From Candidatus Rokuibacteriota bacterium (GTDB lineage: Bacteria > Methylomirabilota > Methylomirabilia > Rokubacteriales > CSP1-6): a stretch of 64,000 nucleotides of DNA. Positions 1,707 through 9,992 of the stretch are shown here, piece by piece. The notes below the pieces were generated by a model, which was given only the letters and a program-made list of their open reading frames with translations, was not told where the DNA came from and made no database searches. Every line of letters starts with the position of its first letter. Position 1 is the stretch's first letter. Location: the NCBI GenBank assembly GCA_003220615.1, contig QHTB01000131.1, forward strand, positions 33,244 to 97,243, given 5' to 3'. A program made the translations under genes and the position numbers.

Positions 1707-2138
1707 ATGCTGCGCTTCACCAAACGAGCCGACTACGGACTGATGGCCATCCATTACATTGCCATCCATGAGGACCGCGGCTCGGTGAGCGCAAAGCGGA
1801 TCGCGGACGAGTTCGGGATTCCACCGGAGCTCCTGGCCAAGATCCTCCAGCGGCTGGCGCGAGAGCGGTTGATCGTCAGCTACAACGGGCCGAAGGGCGG
1901 GTATGCGCTGGCCCGGCGACCGGCGGAGATCTCGGTCGGGCAGGTGGTGCGCGCGCTCGAGGGCCCGATCAACATCGTGGAGTGTATGGAGAGCGACAGT
2001 GACTGTCCGCAGATGGCTCGCTGCAACCTGCGACGGCCGGTGCAGAAGATCCAGGTCGCGATCAGCCAGATGCTGGACTCGATGAGCCTGGCCGAGCTGG
2101 TGGCCAATGACGTGCCCGAGTTGTTCGCGATTCGGTAG
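1707..2138 (+). CDS. iscR: Rrf2-family Fe-S regulator IscR
   Basis: 143-residue Rrf2-family transcription factor, beginning LRFTKRADYGL, the usual start of the N-terminal winged helix. Three cysteines (Cys93, Cys100, Cys106) in C-x6-C-x5-C spacing match the Fe-S-binding loop of IscR, one residue longer than the C-x5-C-x5-C of E. coli. ATG 1707 is preferred over ATG 1680 because a GGAGA stands 7 bp before it and the family starts at this point. IscR senses cellular [2Fe-2S] status and represses the isc operon when holo. Directly downstream lie IscS-like, IscU, IscA, HscB, HscA, Fdx and IscX genes, which strongly supports the assignment over NsrR or CymR. Confidence 0.9.
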   Translation: MLRFTKRADYGLMAIHYIAIHEDRGSVSAKRIADEFGIPPELLAKILQRLARERLIVSYNGPKGGYALARRPAEISVGQVVRALEGPINIVECMESDSDCPQMARCNLRRPVQKIQVAISQMLDSMSLAELVANDVPELFAIR

Positions 2139-2313: not shown

Positions 2314-3540
2314 ATGGCAGTGACGTTCCCGATCTTCATGGATGCGCAGTCGACCACGCCGGCGGATCCACGCGTGGTCGAGGCGATGCTGCCGTACTTC
2401 ACCCAGAAGTATGGCCATCCGGCCAGCCGGAACCATCCCTTCGGATGGGAAGCTGAAGCGGCCGTCGATACGGCCCGCAGCCAGCTCGCGGCGCTGATCG
2501 GCGCCCGGGATCCGAAGGAGATCGTGTTCACGTCGGGCGGGACGGAGTCGATCAACCTCGCCCTCAAGGGCGTGGCCGAGATGTATCGGGAGAAGGGGAA
2601 CCACATCGTCACTACGGTCATCGAGCAGCGCGCCGGCCTCGACGTGGCCAAGCGTCTGGAGCGGCAGGGCTCCGAGGTCACGTACGTGCCCGTGCAGCCC
2701 GACGGCCTGATCGACGTCGAGCAGATCGGCAAGGCGATCACGGACAAGACGGTCCTGGTCTCCGTGATGTTCGCCAACAACGAGATCGGTACGATCCAGG
2801 ACATCGCGGCCATCGGCAAGCTCTGCAAGGCCAAGGGCATCCTCTTCCACACGGACGCCACGCAGGCGGTGGGGAAGATCCCGGTGAACGTGGAGGCGAT
2901 GGGCATCGACCTGCTCTCGTGCACGGCGCACCTGATGTACGGGCCCAAGGGCATCGGAGCGCTCTACGTCCGGCGCAAGGGACCACGGGTCCGCATCGCG
3001 CCGATCATCGACGGCGGCGGGCATGAGCGAGGCATGCGGTCGGGCACGCTGCCCGTGCCCCTCATCGTCGGCCTCGGCAAGGCCGCCGAGATCGCCCGCG
3101 AGGTCATGCCCGAGGAGAGCGTGCGGCTGGCGCGGCTGCGCGACAAGCTGCAGGACGCCGTCCTGTCGAACGTCGACGAGGCCTTCCTGAACGGGAACGT
3201 CGAACGGCGACTGCCGCACAACCTGAACATCTCGTTCGCCTACGTCGAAGGGGAATCGGTGCTGATGGGCCTCAACAAGGAGTGCGCGCTGTCGTCGGGC
3301 TCGGCCTGCACGTCGTCGACGCTCGAGCCCTCGTACGTCATCGCGGCGCTCGGAGCCAGCGCCGAGCTGGCGCACTCGTCGATCCGCTTCAGCCTCCATC
3401 GGTTCAACACCGAGGAGGAAGTGGATTGGGTAGGTCGGCGCACCATCGAGGTGATCAAGCGCCTGCGGGAGATGTCGCCACTCTACGAATTGGCCAAGGA
3501 AGGCGTGGACCTGAAGTCGATCCAGTGGAAGGCCGAGTAA
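2314..3540 (+). CDS. IscS/NifS-like cysteine desulfurase lacking the PLP lysine
   Basis: 408-residue fold-type I protein closely following IscS: TSGGTES phosphate-binding loop, NNEIG, HTDATQAVGK with the PLP-pairing Asp, and the mobile loop SSGSACTSS with the persulfide Cys332. IscS normally strips sulfur from cysteine and passes it to IscU. Two core residues are changed: where IscS has the HK of SxHKxYGPKG, this protein reads AHLMYGPKG, so the Schiff-base Lys is Leu207 (nt 2932-2934, CTG); and the His that stacks on PLP (EHKAV) is Gln105 (EQRAG). Overall length and remaining motifs are intact, so this is not simple decay. It sits between iscR and a canonical iscU, the normal iscS position. 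It may be a non-catalytic scaffold or use PLP without an internal aldimine. A canonical paralogue lies at 8458. Confidence 0.85.
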   Translation: MAVTFPIFMDAQSTTPADPRVVEAMLPYFTQKYGHPASRNHPFGWEAEAAVDTARSQLAALIGARDPKEIVFTSGGTESINLALKGVAEMYREKGNHIVTTVIEQRAGLDVAKRLERQGSEVTYVPVQPDGLIDVEQIGKAITDKTVLVSVMFANNEIGTIQDIAAIGKLCKAKGILFHTDATQAVGKIPVNVEAMGIDLLSCTAHLMYGPKGIGALYVRRKGPRVRIAPIIDGGGHERGMRSGTLPVPLIVGLGKAAEIAREVMPEESVRLARLRDKLQDAVLSNVDEAFLNGNVERRLPHNLNISFAYVEGESVLMGLNKECALSSGSACTSSTLEPSYVIAALGASAELAHSSIRFSLHRFNTEEEVDWVGRRTIEVIKRLREMSPLYELAKEGVDLKSIQWKAE

Positions 3541-3556
3541 CGGGGGAGACACGTTC

Positions 3557-3961
3557 ATGGCTTACAGCGACAAGGTCGTCGATCACTACAACAACCCGCG
3601 CAACGTCGGGTCCTTCGCCAAGGACACGCCGGGCGTGGGGACGGGGCTCGTGGGCGCGCCCGAGTGCGGCGACGTCATGAAGCTCCAGATCAAGGTCAAC
3701 CTCGAGACGGGCATCATCGAGGACGCGAAGTTCAAGACGTTCGGCTGCGGCAGCGCCATCGCGTCGTCGAGCCTGGCCACCGAGTGGCTCAAGGGGAAGT
3801 CTGTCGACGAGGCGGCCAAGATCAAGAACACGGACATCGTGAACGAGCTCAAGCTGCCACCCGTGAAGATCCACTGCTCGGTGCTGGCCGAGGACGCGAT
3901 CAAGGCGGCCCTCGCGGATTACAAAACCAAGCAACCGGCCGAACCGGCGGCGACGAGGTAG
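3557..3961 (+). CDS. iscU: Fe-S cluster scaffold IscU
   Basis: 134 residues, almost co-linear with E. coli IscU. The three ligand cysteines are present: Cys37 in PECGDVMK, Cys64 in FGCGSAIASSS and Cys107 in KIHCSVLAEDAIKAA, together with the Asp two residues after Cys37 that promotes cluster release. The HscA-recognition motif LPPVK precedes the last Cys. A GGGGGAG ribosome binding site is about 8 bp before ATG 3557. It lies 16 bp after the IscS-like gene and 16 bp before iscA. IscU assembles [2Fe-2S] clusters from sulfur donated by IscS and hands them on through HscB/HscA, both encoded downstream. Nothing is missing in this copy. Confidence 0.95.
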   Translation: MAYSDKVVDHYNNPRNVGSFAKDTPGVGTGLVGAPECGDVMKLQIKVNLETGIIEDAKFKTFGCGSAIASSSLATEWLKGKSVDEAAKIKNTDIVNELKLPPVKIHCSVLAEDAIKAALADYKTKQPAEPAATR

Positions 3962-3977: not shown

Positions 3978-4307
3978 ATGGCGGTCGAGCTGACGGAAGC
4001 GGCGTCCAAGCAGGTCAAGGAGCTCAAGCAGGCGCAGAACCTGCCCGAGAACGTGTTTCTGCGGATGGGAGTACGCGGCGGCGGCTGCTCGGGTATGTCG
4101 TACTCGCTGGAGTTCGACACCGAGAAGGGGCCGCACGACCGCGAGTTCGATATCGACGGCGTGAAGGTCGTCGTGGACACCAAGAGCTATCTCTACCTGG
4201 CCGGAATCACGCTCGATTACGTCCAGCAGGGATTGACGGGCGGCTTCACGTTCGTGAACCCGAAGGCGAAGTCGACCTGTGGGTGCGGCACGTCGTTCTC
4301 GGCGTAG
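3978..4307 (+). CDS. iscA: A-type Fe-S carrier IscA
   Basis: 109 residues of the HesB/IscA family. The three conserved cysteines are present: Cys37 in GGGCSGMSY and Cys101/Cys103 in the C-terminal CGCGTSFSA. A-type carriers accept clusters from IscU and deliver them, mostly as [4Fe-4S], to apo-enzymes. AGGAGG at 3960-3965 precedes ATG 3978. The position directly after iscU and before a terminator-like hairpin makes it the last gene of the first half of the isc operon. ErpA would have the same motifs, but operon context favours IscA. Confidence 0.93.
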   Translation: MAVELTEAASKQVKELKQAQNLPENVFLRMGVRGGGCSGMSYSLEFDTEKGPHDREFDIDGVKVVVDTKSYLYLAGITLDYVQQGLTGGFTFVNPKAKSTCGCGTSFSA

Positions 4308-4557: not shown

Positions 4558-5145
4558 GTGAACCACTTCGAGGTCTTCGGATTGGAGCGGCGGCTCGGCA
4601 TCGATGCCGAGGCGTTACAGCGACGGTTCTACGAGCTGTCGCGGCGCTATCACCCTGACTTCCACGCGTACGCGACGCCCACGGAGCAGGCGGAGGCGCT
4701 TGCGGCATCGGCACGACTCAACGCCGCGTACCGGACGCTGCGCGACCCCATCGCCCGCATCGATTACCTGGTTCGCCTGGAGGAAGGCCGCGAAACGAAG
4801 GAAGGCGCCACCGACAAGCCGAAGGCGCCGCCGGAGCTCTTGGCCGAGATGTTCGAGATCCAGGAAGCCCTGGCCGAGGCGAAGGCCGGCGGCCTGGATG
4901 AGACCACCCGGCGCACGCTGACCGAGCAGCGCGAGCGCTTGCTCGCGCGCCATGCCGAGGAAGAAGCGCGGCTGATCGGCCCGCTGTCGGCGGTGTGGGA
5001 TGGGGCGGCCCCGGACAGGCGGCCGGCCCTCCTGGCCGCGTTCAAGCAAGCGCTGGCCACCCGCGCCTACCTGCGCACCGTGATCGATGACCTCGGGCAG
5101 GCGCTGGGTGAGGGAGACGAGATTGTCGCGCATCATCGGCATTGA
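4558..5145 (+). CDS. hscB: J-domain co-chaperone HscB
   Basis: 195 residues. The N-terminal J-domain (about 1-75) carries the HPD tripeptide at residues 32-34 (YHPDFH), and the C-terminal half is the helical, acidic IscU-binding domain typical of HscB/Jac1. HscB brings IscU-cluster complexes to HscA and stimulates its ATPase. The start is GTG 4558, giving N-H-F-E-V-F-G-L, the standard HscB beginning; only a weak GGTGAG precedes it. The 3' end overlaps hscA by 23 bp, so hscA translation is probably coupled. Confidence 0.9.
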   Translation: MNHFEVFGLERRLGIDAEALQRRFYELSRRYHPDFHAYATPTEQAEALAASARLNAAYRTLRDPIARIDYLVRLEEGRETKEGATDKPKAPPELLAEMFEIQEALAEAKAGGLDETTRRTLTEQRERLLARHAEEEARLIGPLSAVWDGAAPDRRPALLAAFKQALATRAYLRTVIDDLGQALGEGDEIVAHHRH

Positions 5146-6976
5146 CCTCGGGACGACCAACAGCCTCGTCGCCTACGTCGACGACGCGACGGGACTGCCG
5201 CGCGTCATTCCCGACGGCGAAGGGCGGAAGCTGTTGCCCTCGGTCGTCGCGTTCGCGCCCGAGGGCATCCTCGTGGGCGAGGCCGCTCGCCGGCAACTGG
5301 TCCGGCGGCCGCACTCCACCGTCTATTCGGTGAAGCGCTTCATGGGCCGCGACTACGAGGACGTCAAGGACGAGCTGCGCTATTTCCCGTTCGCCATCCG
5401 TCCGGCCGACGGCATCGTGAAGCTCGACGTCGGAGGCCGCGAGGTCACGCCGCCCGAGGTGTCGGCCGTCGTGCTGAAGTCGCTGAAGGAGCGGGCCGAG
5501 GCGCACTTCAAGGAGCCGGTCGAGAAGGCGGTCGTCACCGTCCCCGCCTACTTCAACGACAGTCAGCGGCAGGCCACCCGCGATGCCGGCCGCATCGCCG
5601 GGCTCGACGTCGTCCGCATCGTGAACGAGCCGACGGCGGCGGCGCTCGCGTACGGCCTCCACCGTTTGTCCGAGGGCGTGATCGCCGTATACGACCTGGG
5701 CGGCGGGACGTTCGACATCTCGATCTTGAGGGTCAAGGACGGGATCTTCGAGGTCCTGGCCACCAACGGCAACACGCATCTGGGCGGTGACGACTTCGAC
5801 CGCGTCATCATGTTGTGGCTGCTCGAAGACATCCAGTGCCGCCACCACGCGGAGATCGTCCGGAGCGGACTCGATCTCGCTCGCGATGCCGAGGCGATGC
5901 AGGAGCTGCGGCTGGCCGCCGAGGCCGCGAAGATCCGGTTGTCCACCGAGGAACGGACGCGGCTCACGATCCCGTTCGCCGGTTTCACCTACCGCACGGA
6001 GATCACGCGGGCCGACGTCGAGCGCCTCATCGAGCCACTGGTGGCCCGAACCCTCGAGCCGTGCCGCCGCGCGCTGGCCGATGCCGGGCTCCGCCGCGAG
6101 CAGATCGACCAGGTCGTCCTCGTCGGCGGCTCGACGCGGGTGCCTCTGGTGCGCCGGCGGGTGGAGGAGCTCTTCGGGCGCACGCCGCACAGCCATCTCG
6201 ATCCCGACGAGGTGGTCGCGCTCGGCGCCGCCGTCCAGGCCCGGATCCTCGCCGGCGGCATCACCGACATGCTGTTGCTGGACGTCACGCCGCTGTCGCT
6301 CGGCATCGAGACGCTGGGCGGAATCGTGAGCATCCTGATTCCGCGCAACACCACGATCCCGACCAGCGCCCGCGAGATGTTCACCACGTCGGTCGACGGC
6401 CAGACGGTCGTCGACATGCACGTCGTGCAGGGGGAGCGCGAGCTGGCCAAGGACTGCCGGTCGCTCGCCCGCTTCGAGCTGCGCGGCATCGATCCGATGC
6501 CGGCCGGCATGCCCAAGATCGAGGTGACCTTTCTCATCGACGCCAACGGAATCCTCCAGGTGGCCGCCCGGGAGCAGCGCACCGGCAAGGCCACGTCGAT
6601 CGAGGTGAAGCCGACCTACGGCCTGGCCGAGGCCGACGTGGAGCGCATGGTCGAGGAGTCGTTCCAGTACGCCGAGGCCGACGTCAGCGCGCGACTCCTC
6701 ATCGAAGCGCGCAACGAGGCCGACACGGTCCTGACCCACGTGCGCCGCGCGCTCAGCCAGGGCGGTCATCTCGTCGGCGAGGACGAGCGTCGCGGCATCG
6801 CGTCCGCGCTCGAAGCGCTGGAGCGGGCGCGCGCGGGGCAGGACCGCGATCTCATCCGGGACGCGACGACGGCCCTCAACCATGCCACCGAGCATCTGGC
6901 CGAGCTGATGATGGACGCCGCGCTCAAGGGCGCGCTCTCATCCAAGCGGGCCGCCGAGATCATGGAGTCGTCGTGA
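5123..6976 (+). CDS. hscA: Hsp70-class chaperone HscA
   Basis: 617 residues from TTG 5123, matching the length of E. coli HscA. The Hsp70 ATPase signatures are complete: [13 protein letters not shown] at the N-terminus, [12 protein letters not shown] and [16 protein letters not shown]; the substrate-binding domain follows from about residue 385. HscA uses ATP to drive cluster transfer from IscU, recognising LPPVK, which iscU in this operon has. TTG 5123 is preferred because an AGGGAG lies 6-7 bp upstream and the protein then starts [15 protein letters not shown] 5108 is the alternative. It overlaps hscB by 23 bp and fdx by 1 bp. Confidence 0.92.
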
Positions 6977-7299
6977 TGGCTGTGCACCGCGTGACGTTCC
7001 TTCCCCTGAACAAGACCGTCGAGGTCGACGACACCAAGTACCCGTTGGCCGATCACGGCAAGCCGGGCTCGCTCCTCGACATCGCGCTCGCCCACGACAT
7101 CCCGCTCGAGCACAACTGCGGGGGCAGCTGCGCGTGCACGACCTGCCACGTCGTCGTGCGCGAGGGTGAGGAGAATCTCTCGGAGATGCAGGCCGACGAG
7201 GAGGATCGCCTGGACATGGCGGAAGGGCTGACGATCCATTCCCGCCTGGGCTGTCAGGCGGTGGTTCACGGCGACGTCGTGGTGGAGGTTCCCAAGTGA
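6976..7299 (+). CDS. fdx: ISC-type [2Fe-2S] ferredoxin
   Basis: 107 residues. Ligand cysteines follow the adrenodoxin/Isc-Fdx pattern C-x5-C-x2-C...C: Cys48, Cys54, Cys57 (segment CGGSCACTTCH) and Cys93 in LGCQAVV. Isc ferredoxin supplies electrons for cluster assembly on IscU. ATG 6976 overlaps the hscA stop (TGATG), and its own stop overlaps the iscX start, so hscA-fdx-iscX are translationally coupled. The order hscB-hscA-fdx-iscX is that of proteobacterial isc operons. Confidence 0.93.
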   Translation: MAVHRVTFLPLNKTVEVDDTKYPLADHGKPGSLLDIALAHDIPLEHNCGGSCACTTCHVVVREGEENLSEMQADEEDRLDMAEGLTIHSRLGCQAVVHGDVVVEVPK

Positions 7300-7502
7300 C
7301 GATGAAGTGGCGAGACGCCGAAGACATCGCCATCGCGCTCAGCGAGCGGTATCCCGACACCGATCCGCTGGCCGTGCGGTTCACGGATCTCCATCGCTGG
7401 GTGACCGAGCTCGCCGGGTTCGCCGACGACCCCAAGGCCTCGAACGAGTCGACGCTCGAGAAGATCCAGATGGCGTGGCTGGATGAGTACCGGAACCGCT
7501 AG
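7296..7502 (+). CDS. iscX: IscX (YfhJ) Fe-S assembly regulator
   Basis: 68 residues with the whole family signature: K-W-x-D-A-x-x-I-A, R-F-T-D-L-H-x-W, DDPKASNE and the C-terminal WLDEYRN. IscX binds IscS and iron and tunes desulfurase activity in E. coli; presence of this gene argues that an IscS-type protein is a functional partner. GTG 7296 overlaps the fdx stop by 4 nt; ATG 7302 is the alternative start and fits the family length equally well. It is the last gene of the isc run and converges with the DsrH-like gene after 10 bp, with no clear terminator between them. Confidence 0.92.
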   Translation: MTMKWRDAEDIAIALSERYPDTDPLAVRFTDLHRWVTELAGFADDPKASNESTLEKIQMAWLDEYRNR

Positions 7503-7512
7503 CGTGAGCCGT

Positions 7513-7737
7513 CTACCAGGTGACGACCTGGTCCGCCGCGAAGATCTGCTCGAGGAGCGCGTCCCACGAGAGCTCGTCGGGCACGCGCTGGACCCGGACG
7601 CCCACGGGCAGCATCGAAAGCGCGGCGCCGTGCAGGAGCGCGACGGCGACCTGGTCGCCGACGCCGAGCGCGCGCTCGACGGCGGCCCGGACGAGGTCGG
7701 GATCGCCACCCTTGAAGAGATGGAGGACCGCGGCCAT
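7513..7737 (-). CDS. DsrH/TusB-like sulfur relay protein
   Basis: 74-residue small protein, third in a minus-strand trio. It begins A-A-V-L-H-L-F-K-G-G-D-P-D and ends A-A-D-Q-V-V-T-W, the terminal Trp ending being typical of DsrH/TusB. TusBCD form a hexamer that passes persulfide sulfur from IscS via TusA to TusE for tRNA 2-thiouridine; DsrEFH does the analogous job in sulfur oxidation. No cysteine is present here, as in many TusB proteins. The start overlaps the stop of the upstream gene by one base. Assignment rests on size, tail motif and gene order; tusA and tusE/dsrC are not in the window. Confidence 0.65.
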   Translation of the reverse strand: MAAVLHLFKGGDPDLVRAAVERALGVGDQVAVALLHGAALSMLPVGVRVQRVPDELSWDALLEQIFAADQVVTW

Positions 7738-8090
7738 CAGAAGACGATGAAACTCCGGGCGTGGCGCATCAGGTCGGCGATGTCTTCACGACTCACGGGG
7801 ACGACGGGATGCTTGTCGGCGTTCCAGTCCGAGGCGTCCGGGATGGCGGAGGCCTCGACGTGGAAGGGCACACCGAGCTGGCGAAGGCTCGCGCGGAACT
7901 TGGCGATGTCGTCGCCGTCTACCAACTCGTCGGTGTCGTCGTCGAGCAGGTGCACGGCCCCGTCGGTCAGCACGAACGTCACCTGGTTCTCGCCGGCGAC
8001 CACCCCGACGCCGATGCGCATGGCCTCGAAGGCCCGGTGCGACGTGCGGGGGTCGCTCGCGATGAGCACGAGGACCGGCGAGCCCGACAC
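7737..8090 (-). CDS. DsrF/TusC-like protein (DsrE/DsrF superfamily)
   Basis: 117 residues; Rossmann-like alternation of hydrophobic strands (PVLVLIASDP, VTFVLTDGAVHLL) and helices, with the R-A-F-E-A-M-R-I-G-V pattern of the DsrE/DsrF superfamily helix after strand one. It contains no cysteine, as expected for a TusC/DsrF-type structural subunit. It lies 1 nt after the DsrE-like gene and overlaps the DsrH-like gene, giving the standard D-C-B order. Likely forms a heteromeric sulfur-transfer complex with its neighbours. Individual sequence similarity to TusC is modest. Confidence 0.65.
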   Translation of the reverse strand: MSGSPVLVLIASDPRTSHRAFEAMRIGVGVVAGENQVTFVLTDGAVHLLDDDTDELVDGDDIAKFRASLRQLGVPFHVEASAIPDASDWNADKHPVVPVSREDIADLMRHARSFIVF

Positions 8091-8091
8091 G

Positions 8092-8415
8092 TCAGTTCAG
8101 CGCGATGAAGCGGTCGGTGCCGTTGATGATATCGGTCAGCACGACGAGGCCGCAGTACGTCACGTCGGCGGCGTCTTCCAGGGGGATGCGACGCTTCTGG
8201 CAGCCGTAGGCGCAGGCGAACAGCTTGACGCCGCGCGCGGGCAGCGCGCGCAGACGGCGATCGGCGAGCGCGCGCACGCCGTCGTCGATCAAATACAGGT
8301 ACACGTTGGCGCCGCGGTCGAGCGCAGCTTGGGCGAGGCCGAGTGCGGTGGCGAGGTTCGGATGCTCGGGCGCCGTCGAGATCATCAGCCCGAGCTTTTT
8401 GCCGGACAGCTCCAT
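8092..8415 (-). CDS. DsrE/TusD-like sulfurtransferase subunit
   Basis: 107 residues of the DsrE fold: strand KLGLMISTAPEHPN, helix A-L-G-L-A-Q-A-A-L-D-R-G, strand NVYLYLIDDG, then L-F-A-C-A-Y-G-C-Q-K-R-R-I-P, which holds the persulfide-carrying Cys region of TusD/DsrE. It is the first gene of the minus-strand trio and the only one with cysteines, so it is the likely sulfur-accepting subunit. It starts 42 bp from the divergent cysteine desulfurase gene at 8458, which would be the natural sulfur donor. An alternative is a stand-alone DsrE-family protein of unknown function. Confidence 0.7.
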   Translation of the reverse strand: MELSGKKLGLMISTAPEHPNLATALGLAQAALDRGANVYLYLIDDGVRALADRRLRALPARGVKLFACAYGCQKRRIPLEDAADVTYCGLVVLTDIINGTDRFIALN

Positions 8416-8457: not shown

Positions 8458-9615
8458 ATGAGCCGTAAGGTTTACCTCGATCACAACGCCTCGACGCCTG
8501 TTCATCCGGACGTCGTGGCCGAGATGGTGCCGTACTTCCACGACGTGTTCGGGAATCCCTCCAGCATCCACGGCTTCGGCCGGGCCGCGCGCGATGCGGT
8601 GGACGTGGCCCGCGAGCGCGTCGGCCGTTTCCTCGCGGTGGCGCCGGAGGAGATCGTCTTCACGTCGGGTGGGACCGAGTCCGACAACTTCGGCGTGAAG
8701 GGACTGGCCCTGGCCCGCGGCCGCGGCCACATCATCACGTCGAAGATCGAGCACCACGCCGTGTTGCGCACGTGCCAGACGCTCGAGGAACGCGGCTTCG
8801 AGGTCACCTATCTTCCCGTCGACGAGTACGGCATGGTGGCGGCCGACGACGTGAAGCGCGCGATCCGGCCCGACACGATCGCGATCAGCGTGATGCACGC
8901 CAACAGCGAGATCGGCACCATCCAGCCGGTCGCGGCCATCGGCGCGCTGGCCCGCGAGCACGGCGTGCCGTTCCACGTCGACGCCGTGCAGACGTTCGGC
9001 AAGGTTCCGATCGACGTGCACGGCTCCTCCATCGACCTGCTGTCGTTCTCCGGCCACAAGATCTACGGCCCCAAGGGCATCGCCGGGCTCTACATCCGCA
9101 AGGGGACGAAGATGGTGGCGATCCAGCACGGCGGTGAGCACGAGCGCCGGCGGCGGGCCGGCACCGAGAACGTGCCGGGGATCGTCGGGCTGGGCAAGGC
9201 GGTCGAGGTTCGTGGCCGCGACATGGCGGAGGAAGCGGTGCGCGTGATGTCGCTGCGCGACCTCCTGTGGAACGGCGTGCGCCAGCGGATCCCCGAAGTT
9301 CGCCTCAATGGCCATCCCGTCGAGCGCTTGCCCGGCACCGCCAACATCGCGTTCCGTCACGTCGAGTCGGAGTCGATCGTGCTCGGCCTCGATCTGAAGG
9401 GCGTGGCCGTGTCGGCGGGCTCGGCCTGCACGGCCGGTCACGTGGAGCCGTCGCACGTCCTGGTGGCCCTCGGGCTCCCGCTCGACTGGGCGATGGGCGC
9501 GGTGCGCTTCTCGCTCGGCCGCAGCACGACCGCCGACGATATCGATTACGTCGTGGATTGCCTCGAGCCGCTCGTGCGGAAGCTGCGCGTGGCGCTGCCG
9601 GCTGGACGCGCGTGA
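8458..9615 (+). CDS. Cysteine desulfurase IscS/NifS, catalytically intact copy
   Basis: 385 residues with every catalytic element: TSGGTES, the PLP-stacking His99 in IEHHAVL, NSEIG, HVDAVQTFGK, the Schiff-base Lys201 in SGHKIYGPKG and the persulfide Cys324 in SAGSACTAGHVEPSH. It converts L-cysteine to alanine and enzyme-bound persulfide. GGGGAG lies about 11 bp before ATG 8458. The stop overlaps the start of a second iscU-like gene and cysE follows, so this operon couples cysteine synthesis to sulfur mobilisation. It is the only complete desulfurase in the window and could serve the isc operon and the Tus-like trio. Confidence 0.92.
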   Translation: MSRKVYLDHNASTPVHPDVVAEMVPYFHDVFGNPSSIHGFGRAARDAVDVARERVGRFLAVAPEEIVFTSGGTESDNFGVKGLALARGRGHIITSKIEHHAVLRTCQTLEERGFEVTYLPVDEYGMVAADDVKRAIRPDTIAISVMHANSEIGTIQPVAAIGALAREHGVPFHVDAVQTFGKVPIDVHGSSIDLLSFSGHKIYGPKGIAGLYIRKGTKMVAIQHGGEHERRRRAGTENVPGIVGLGKAVEVRGRDMAEEAVRVMSLRDLLWNGVRQRIPEVRLNGHPVERLPGTANIAFRHVESESIVLGLDLKGVAVSAGSACTAGHVEPSHVLVALGLPLDWAMGAVRFSLGRSTTADDIDYVVDCLEPLVRKLRVALPAGRA

Positions 9616-9992
9616 GGTACAGCCCGACCGTCGTGGATCACTTCCTCAACCCGCGGAACGCCGGGCTCATGCGCGAGCCGGATGGGGTCGGTGAGGACGA
9701 GTACGAGGGCTGCGGCGATCTCGCCCGCTTCTTTCTGCGCGTCGCGGACGGCCGGGCCCGCGAGCTGCGCTTTCAGACATACGGCTGCGGGCCGACCATC
9801 GCCGCCGCCAGCGTGGCCAGCGAGCGACTGGTCGGGCGCGCGGTCGAGGATCTCGTGAACGTCAAGGCGGACGAGATCGAGCGCGCGCTGGACGGGCTGC
9901 CGGAGGAGCGCAGGCATGCGGCTGACGTGGTGGCCGGCGCGGTGCGAGCCGCGGCGCTCGATCACCTGCGCCGTCGGAACGGCCATGTTTGA
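9612..9992 (+). CDS. IscU/NifU-N-like scaffold lacking the third ligand Cys
   Basis: 126 residues; the start [16 protein letters not shown] is unmistakably IscU. Cys34 (EGCGDL, with the following Asp) and Cys59 ([11 protein letters not shown]) match the first two ligands. The third site is changed: the expected LPPVK-x-HC is LPEERRHA, so Cys becomes Ala103 and the HscA-binding motif is lost. Such a protein could bind a cluster with other ligands, act as a sulfur acceptor, or be non-functional. GTG 9612 overlaps the desulfurase stop (GTGA) and the 3' end overlaps cysE by 8 nt, so it is translated as part of an iscS-iscU-cysE unit. Confidence 0.8.

Follow-up and report, generated by a model that had tools for sequence, protein, structure and literature searches.

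The isc operon of a Candidatus Rokuibacteriota bacterium (GenBank assembly GCA_003220615.1) encodes an IscS protein that has lost both the Schiff-base lysine and the catalytic histidine of cysteine desulfurases while keeping the persulfide cysteine. The gene, here denoted iscS* (product IscS*), lies in a 64,000-nucleotide stretch of contig QHTB01000131.1 (positions 33,244 to 97,243, forward strand; the window). It belongs to a full operon iscR-iscS*-iscU-iscA-hscB-hscA-fdx-iscX, and a second IscS/NifS-type gene, iscS2, is found approximately 5 kb downstream of it. In the iron-sulfur cluster (ISC) assembly pathway of bacteria, and of mitochondria in the form of NFS1, IscS is considered to supply the sulfur. 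Most examined genomes of the window's family combine a full ISC operon with the absence of detectable SufB/D. Nevertheless, the IscS of this operon lacks the desulfurase residues, although the features for partner binding and for carrying the cysteine are under selection. Tentatively, with the balance of probabilities close to even, we suggest that IscS* is a disabled desulfurase retained as a docking partner of IscU and as a persulfide relay through Cys332, predicted to be fed by IscS2. If true, mobilisation of sulfur from cysteine and its delivery to IscU would be separable functions of IscS.

Replacements at positions 207 and 105

By its sequence family and fold IscS* is of the IscS/NFS1 type. 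It scores 609.8 bits with the NCBIfam model NF010611 (IscS; cut-off 548), which would still label it a cysteine desulfurase. Leu207 of IscS* is aligned with Lys206 of Escherichia coli IscS, Gln105 with His104, and Cys332 with Cys328. The original prediction, made from the DNA alone, had placed a leucine at the Schiff-base lysine site and a glutamine at the site of the histidine stacking on pyridoxal 5'-phosphate (PLP), with the Cys332 loop kept, and had proposed an alignment of homologues. Both codons (CTG and CAG) were confirmed, and the alignment demonstrated that Leu or Met at position 207 and Gln105 are conserved across the window's family, as is the loop.

Out of 8000 candidates scored in the protein search, the best 120 were aligned with the query. 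All 121 rows have Leu at position 207 and Gln at position 105, one of them (P0024) with the spelling HLIYGSKG around position 207. The best 120 of 8000 carry five names of Candidatus Rokubacteria or Rokuibacteriota and one of Binatia. The phylum was represented by 95 genomes, of which 57 are from the window's family. The gene was read from the 51 family genomes with a clear match, yielding 52 iscS* sequences (one genome has two). Position 207 is occupied by Leu in 45 of them and by Met in seven. Gln105 is present in 51 of 51 sequences, the remaining one being a fragment without this position. Cys332 is also present in 51 of 51, and the loop residues 328-334 are invariant. A third pocket change specific to the family, Asp/Asn80 to Ile, occurs in 51 of 51 sequences and was not part of the original prediction. 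Since Leu207 (Met in seven family sequences) and Gln105 are shared by all rows of the search and by the family genomes, the replacements are real and not a sequencing error.

The gene is under strong constraint. The ratio of nonsynonymous to synonymous substitution rates (dN/dS) was calculated by the Nei-Gojobori method as the median within genera of metagenome-assembled genomes (MAGs), with 16-18 pairs from the 31 family genomes that have long loci. The value for iscS*, 0.079, is the lowest among 11 genes of the cluster (iscU, 0.085; iscS2, 0.112; hscA, 0.147), and thus iscS* is not decaying. In the same 31 genomes the median amino-acid identity is 83% for IscS* and 76% for IscS2. The earlier suggestion that the changes look selected rather than random agrees with this: both replacements affecting PLP chemistry are family-wide, the dN/dS is the lowest, and the cysteine loop is kept.

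The window comes from a fragmented MAG with an estimated contamination of 5.5%, and in one family member (G085) a stop codon is found near the C-terminus of iscS*. These facts could point to a sequencing error, contamination or a decaying pseudogene. However, the replacements are consistent across all 121 rows and 51 genomes, Leu or Met being written by several codons; the dN/dS is low and the synteny is conserved. The probability of this explanation is negligible, and it was rejected.

Single origin of the replacements

Both the lysine and the histidine are kept in three sister families belonging to this order, each represented by a single sequence (77-79% identity). The same is true of 20 of 20 outgroup sequences, which were taken from about 25 found in other families of the class. 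Close relatives with an intact lysine had been named beforehand as an argument against the prediction. None occurs among the family sequences read; those in the three sister families date the loss and do not refute the observation.

A maximum-likelihood tree was constructed from 65 rows: 17 of the 52 family sequences, the three sisters, 10 of the 20 outgroup sequences, 21 of 100 loci from a genome-collection scan described below, and 14 others. The family forms one clade (support 100/98) within the clade of the order (100/99). The latter is nested in a larger clade (100/100) together with E. coli IscS, NFS1 and the outgroup of the class. The codon at position 207 is AAG in the sisters, and CTG, CTC or ATG in the family. 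Thus a path of single-base changes from AAG to ATG and further to CTG or CTC, that is, through Met, is possible. The tree and the residue distribution indicate that the lysine and the histidine were lost once, in the ancestor of the family.

Conservation of the pocket

A set of 25 Lys-type IscS proteins (the three sisters, 20 outgroup sequences, E. coli and human) has 98 invariant sites, which form 4753 possible pairs. Only positions 105 and 207 are replaced throughout the family; 16 other sites vary in some members and 80 are unchanged. None of the 51 or 52 usable family sequences departs from Thr77, Asn156, Asp181, Gln184, His206 and Thr245, although the codons for these residues vary. The same holds for Thr204 and for Arg358 (49 of 49 sequences). 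We take Arg358 to be the arginine binding the substrate carboxylate, and Thr245 is presumably the cross-subunit contact to the PLP phosphate.

In other Lys-less relatives the pattern is mostly opposite. Archaeoglobus fulgidus IscS, a third paralogue from the window's genome and 20 of the 21 scan sequences in the tree retain His105, and their position 358 is occupied by Leu, Ile, Val, Cys or Gln; the only exception is a planctomycete sequence with Asn at position 105 and Arg358 kept. Most of the other Lys-less relatives in the 65-row set have changes at Asn156 and Gln184; some of them keep these residues, and the Eisenbacteria row keeps both. Simple decay of the pocket was therefore dropped as an explanation. 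Loss of PLP binding is not supported either. As the cradle residues do not change although their codons do, the pocket still appears to be selected to hold a ligand, a point not considered in the original prediction: the family has lost the catalytic pair and kept the cradle.

One possibility is that IscS* is a ligand-gated or residual PLP protein, in which non-covalently bound PLP, pyridoxamine 5'-phosphate or a PLP-cysteine adduct regulates the cysteine loop or permits slow desulfuration independent of the lysine. The invariance of the remaining cradle residues, together with the presence of Arg358 in only one of the other Lys-less proteins tested, the planctomycete one, fits this model. On the other hand, both the aldimine-forming lysine and the histidine proposed as the base are lost (for their roles, see PMC8300815), and no substitute base is visible in the IscS* sequence. 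We consider this explanation quite unlikely. A ligand-gated relay devoid of catalysis, with the cradle acting as a sensor and sulfur coming from a partner desulfurase of the same cluster, is a related candidate, which we would also call unlikely.

The invariant Thr245 would also fit a heterodimer of IscS* and IscS2, with one disabled and one catalytic subunit, where IscS* provides docking and cross-subunit contacts. The two proteins are homologous and encoded in one conserved cluster. However, they are only 46% identical, and the cradle residues acting within the same subunit are kept too, a feature that remains unexplained if IscS* is a partner and nothing else. Hence the heterodimer seems improbable.

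Sulfur supply and the proposed role

In IscS, the internal aldimine is formed by Lys206, and His104 has been proposed to act as the general base (PMC8300815). Since both are gone, IscS* by itself would not desulfurate cysteine. In the relay that we tentatively prefer, Cys332 would be charged by transpersulfuration from IscS2, either directly or through DsrE-family proteins, and would pass the sulfur to IscU, with Fdx as the reductant. Judging by the conservation of the pocket, IscS* probably still binds cysteine or a PLP-like ligand, with no lysine available for a Schiff base. In IscS* of the family the C-terminal site for IscU is conserved, as is most of the IscX/Fdx patch.

The window's genome and 48 of the 57 family genomes gave no match to the core of SufB/D, some of the searched genomes being incomplete; 14 of 14 control genomes were matched. 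A single occurrence of the motif HKxYGPKG is found in 54 of the 57 family genomes, and none in G055, G063 and G081. An iscS2 gene encoding the HK and GSAC motifs is present in 30 of 30 family clusters tested (the test set adds one sister). An intact iscS2 is found in the same cluster wherever the family cluster was read that far. The window's genome encodes six IscS relatives: IscS*, IscS2, the third paralogue with Asp at the lysine position, a SufS-type protein with the lysine (contig C154), and two distant ones. IscS2 is a natural donor, as it is the only IscS/NifS-type relative with the lysine found in this genome. The second IscS is thus, as originally proposed, a candidate source of the persulfide. 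Other possible donors exist; IscS2 is the most likely one from the gene content.

Several observations weigh against the relay fed by IscS2. SufB/D was undetected also in sister families f2 and f3, and thus its absence is older than the loss of the lysine or not linked to it. In f2, iscS2 already adjoined a Lys-bearing IscS. Moreover, iscS2 is accompanied by a NifU_N gene of its own. In comparison with one to three sister sequences, no replacement in IscU is specific to the family. The positions matching Arg340 and Glu227 of E. coli IscS are not conserved in the family, nor are they in the sisters, and the fully kept cradle (Asn156, Gln184, Arg358) would not be needed by a plain platform. Six of the 57 family genomes lack an iscS* match. 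In four of them the contig ends inside the cluster; the others are G055 and G081, and G055 (95% complete) encodes SufB/D and lacks the HKxYGPKG motif. Finally, the SufS-type desulfurase with the lysine (C154, locus L004:1084-2646) is another possible donor, and Lys-type IscS relatives are encoded in three family genomes, with HKLYAPKG in G040 and G082 and HKFYAPKG in G091. The latter are all three family genomes that were read further for HKxYAPKG, a spelling missed by the motif HKxYGPKG. Because of these proteins, the assumption that IscS2 is the only possible desulfurase was rejected.

Two further signals were considered and discarded. Compared with one to three sister sequences, Fdx has one and IscX two family-specific replacements, which, with none in IscU, gives no usable signal of co-evolution of the partners. 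Loss of TusA binding was suggested by the position of Glu49, which in the family is Ala, Gly or another residue; however, it is also non-Glu in two sisters and in NFS1, and hence this change is not linked to the loss of the lysine.

The other relatives have features of their own. The SufS-type protein from C154 also scores, below the cut-off, with a model of encapsulin-cargo desulfurases, in a genome where SufB/D was undetected. The Lys-type relatives of G040, G091 and G082 are at loci L214, L215 and L216, respectively, and in G040 this gene shares a contig with SufB/D genes. The third IscS/NifS-like gene (contig C149; L003:1393-2640, L209:5931-7485) is located directly behind a TusA gene. Its product has Asp at the lysine position (SSNDLYGPPG), like A. 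fulgidus IscS (SSNDIYGPKG), and retains the cysteine. Thus the window's genome encodes two Lys-less relatives, although contamination of the bin is possible.

Genes of the cluster

The coordinates of the features are listed in Table 1. The DsrE-family pair and its small neighbour are encoded on the minus strand and separate the isc operon from iscS2. The pair has the same location in the three sister families, and these proteins may form a sulfur carrier set. The start of the NifU_N-like gene overlaps the stop codon of iscS2 via GTGA. By eye, its product lacks the third IscU cysteine (RHAADV, compared to IHCSVL in IscU).

Table 1. Features of the isc cluster and of iscS* in window coordinates
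Feature	Position	Strand	Comment
iscR (Rrf2 regulator)	1707..2138	+	PF02082
iscS* (IscS/NFS1-type, without PLP lysine)	2314..3540	+	408 amino acids; ATG start; no internal stop
codon 80, ATC (Ile)	2551..2553	+	three residues past Thr77; Asp/Asn in Lys-type proteins
codon 105, CAG (Gln)	2626..2628	+	catalytic/stacking histidine position; in IEQRAG
codon 207, CTG (Leu)	2932..2934	+	Schiff-base lysine position; in TAHLMYGPKG
persulfide loop SGSACTS, residues 328-334	3295..3315	+	retained; Cys332 is TGC, 3307-3309
iscU (scaffold)	3557..3961	+	TIGR01999; next gene after iscS*
iscA	3978..4307	+	PF01521
hscB (DnaJ co-chaperone)	4558..5145	+	PF00226; named by position
hscA (Hsp70)	5123..6976	+	PF00012; named by position
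fdx (2Fe-2S ferredoxin)	6976..7299	+	PF00111
iscX	7296..7502	+	profile match
small protein between iscX and the DsrE/DsrF genes	7513..7737	-	no family match; presumably TusB/DsrH-like
DsrE/DsrF-family protein	7737..8090	-	PF02635, weak (23.2 bits, cut-off 22.7); presumably TusC-like
DsrE/DsrF-family protein	8092..8415	-	PF02635; presumably TusD-like
iscS2 (second IscS/NifS)	8458..9615	+	HKIYGPKG, EHHA, GSAC; predicted sulfur donor
NifU_N/IscU-like protein	9612..9992	+	PF01592; overlaps iscS2 stop codon

Loss of the lysine in other lineages

Loss of the lysine with retention of the cysteine recurs among iscU-linked relatives in several phyla. The genome collection was scanned with the pattern S-x-H-(codon not starting with A)-x-YGPKG-[IVM]-G, in which the serine excludes the window's family and the codon condition omits residues such as Met. 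At least 100 loci were found, with Arg at the lysine position in 91, Gln in five, His in two, Leu in one, and one frame ending at the motif. An IscU homologue is encoded in the fetched stretch at 67 of the 100 loci. The cysteine is kept in 88 of the 89 alignable loci, the remaining one ending before it.

Verrucomicrobia (many of the loci L078-L174, e.g. L081:1972-3423) have NifS-like proteins with Arg instead of the lysine (SPHRFYGPKG), often in iscR-iscU-nifS clusters; Asn156 and Gln184 are changed in these proteins and the cysteine is kept. In Hydrothermarchaeota (Pyrohabitans and others; L077:4785-7805, L091, L127, L164) two adjacent NifS-like genes precede iscU, one encoding a protein with Lys and the other with Arg. 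To judge from these residues, the neighbours are possibly an active/inactive pair. Gln replaces the lysine in NifS-like proteins of Thermodesulfobacteria, Nitrospirae, Geothermocultor and Eisenbacteria (L111, L122, L137, L144, L158), and iscU is present at four of these five loci.

Comparison with known systems

IscS* resembles E. coli IscS and human NFS1 in the fold, the length, the Cys328 loop, most of the IscU site, the isc operon and the position in the same clade of the tree. It differs from them in the lack of the Schiff-base lysine and the catalytic histidine, and in Ile instead of Asp79/Asn. In the open-licence literature searched, outside of which most subscription papers lie, no mention of a Lys-less IscS from Rokubacteria was found in the accessible texts; the Lys-less cases noticed there were those of A. 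fulgidus and M. acetivorans.

The closest precedent is A. fulgidus IscS (PDB 4eb5, 4eb7, 4hvk), where the lysine is also naturally replaced, the cysteine is retained, and the protein is paired with IscU, the complex having been solved. The PDB chains 4eb5 and 4r5f represent its Asp (natural) and Lys (mutant) forms. This protein is reported to be inactive and proposed to serve as a cluster ligand (PMC7585200).

By analogy, IscS* might dock IscU and provide Cys332 as a temporary ligand of the nascent [2Fe-2S] cluster, the sulfur coming from sulfide and no relay being involved. In A. fulgidus the Lys-less IscS is reported to contribute a cysteine ligand in the IscS-IscU complex (PMC7585200), and H2S is reported to feed IscU in iscS-null E. 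coli without oxygen, with a requirement for IscU and HscBA (PMC13015791). Invariant Cys332 and the mostly kept IscU site are consistent with such a platform. However, an intact iscS2 in the cluster and the retained Fdx would seem less needed with sulfide, and Gln184 and Arg358 are kept in the family, whereas A. fulgidus IscS has Ala and Leu, respectively. This role appears unlikely, and we retain the relay fed by IscS2 as the working interpretation.

Other differences from A. fulgidus IscS concern residues and phylogeny. The latter has Asp for the lysine and Asn for His206 and keeps His105. Its pattern, with Gln184 and the arginine lost and His105 kept, does not occur in IscS* of the window's family, which is nearly the reverse. 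In the tree it groups with archaeal proteins and the third paralogue of the window's genome, outside the IscS/NFS1 clade (96/80; some branches are long). The NifS-like proteins with Arg or Gln for the lysine share with IscS* the loss of the lysine and the retention of the cysteine, but 20 of the 21 in the tree are also outside this clade. IscS1 of Methanosarcina acetivorans, compared by description only, is archaeal; it is reported to lack the essential lysine too and to be encoded within an iscSU gene cluster (PMC7585200). Unlike A. fulgidus IscS, the Rokubacteria protein is encoded in a full bacterial ISC operon. The Rokubacteria case is different from the precedents in the lineage, the operon, the residue pattern and the genomes, in most of which SufB/D was undetected.
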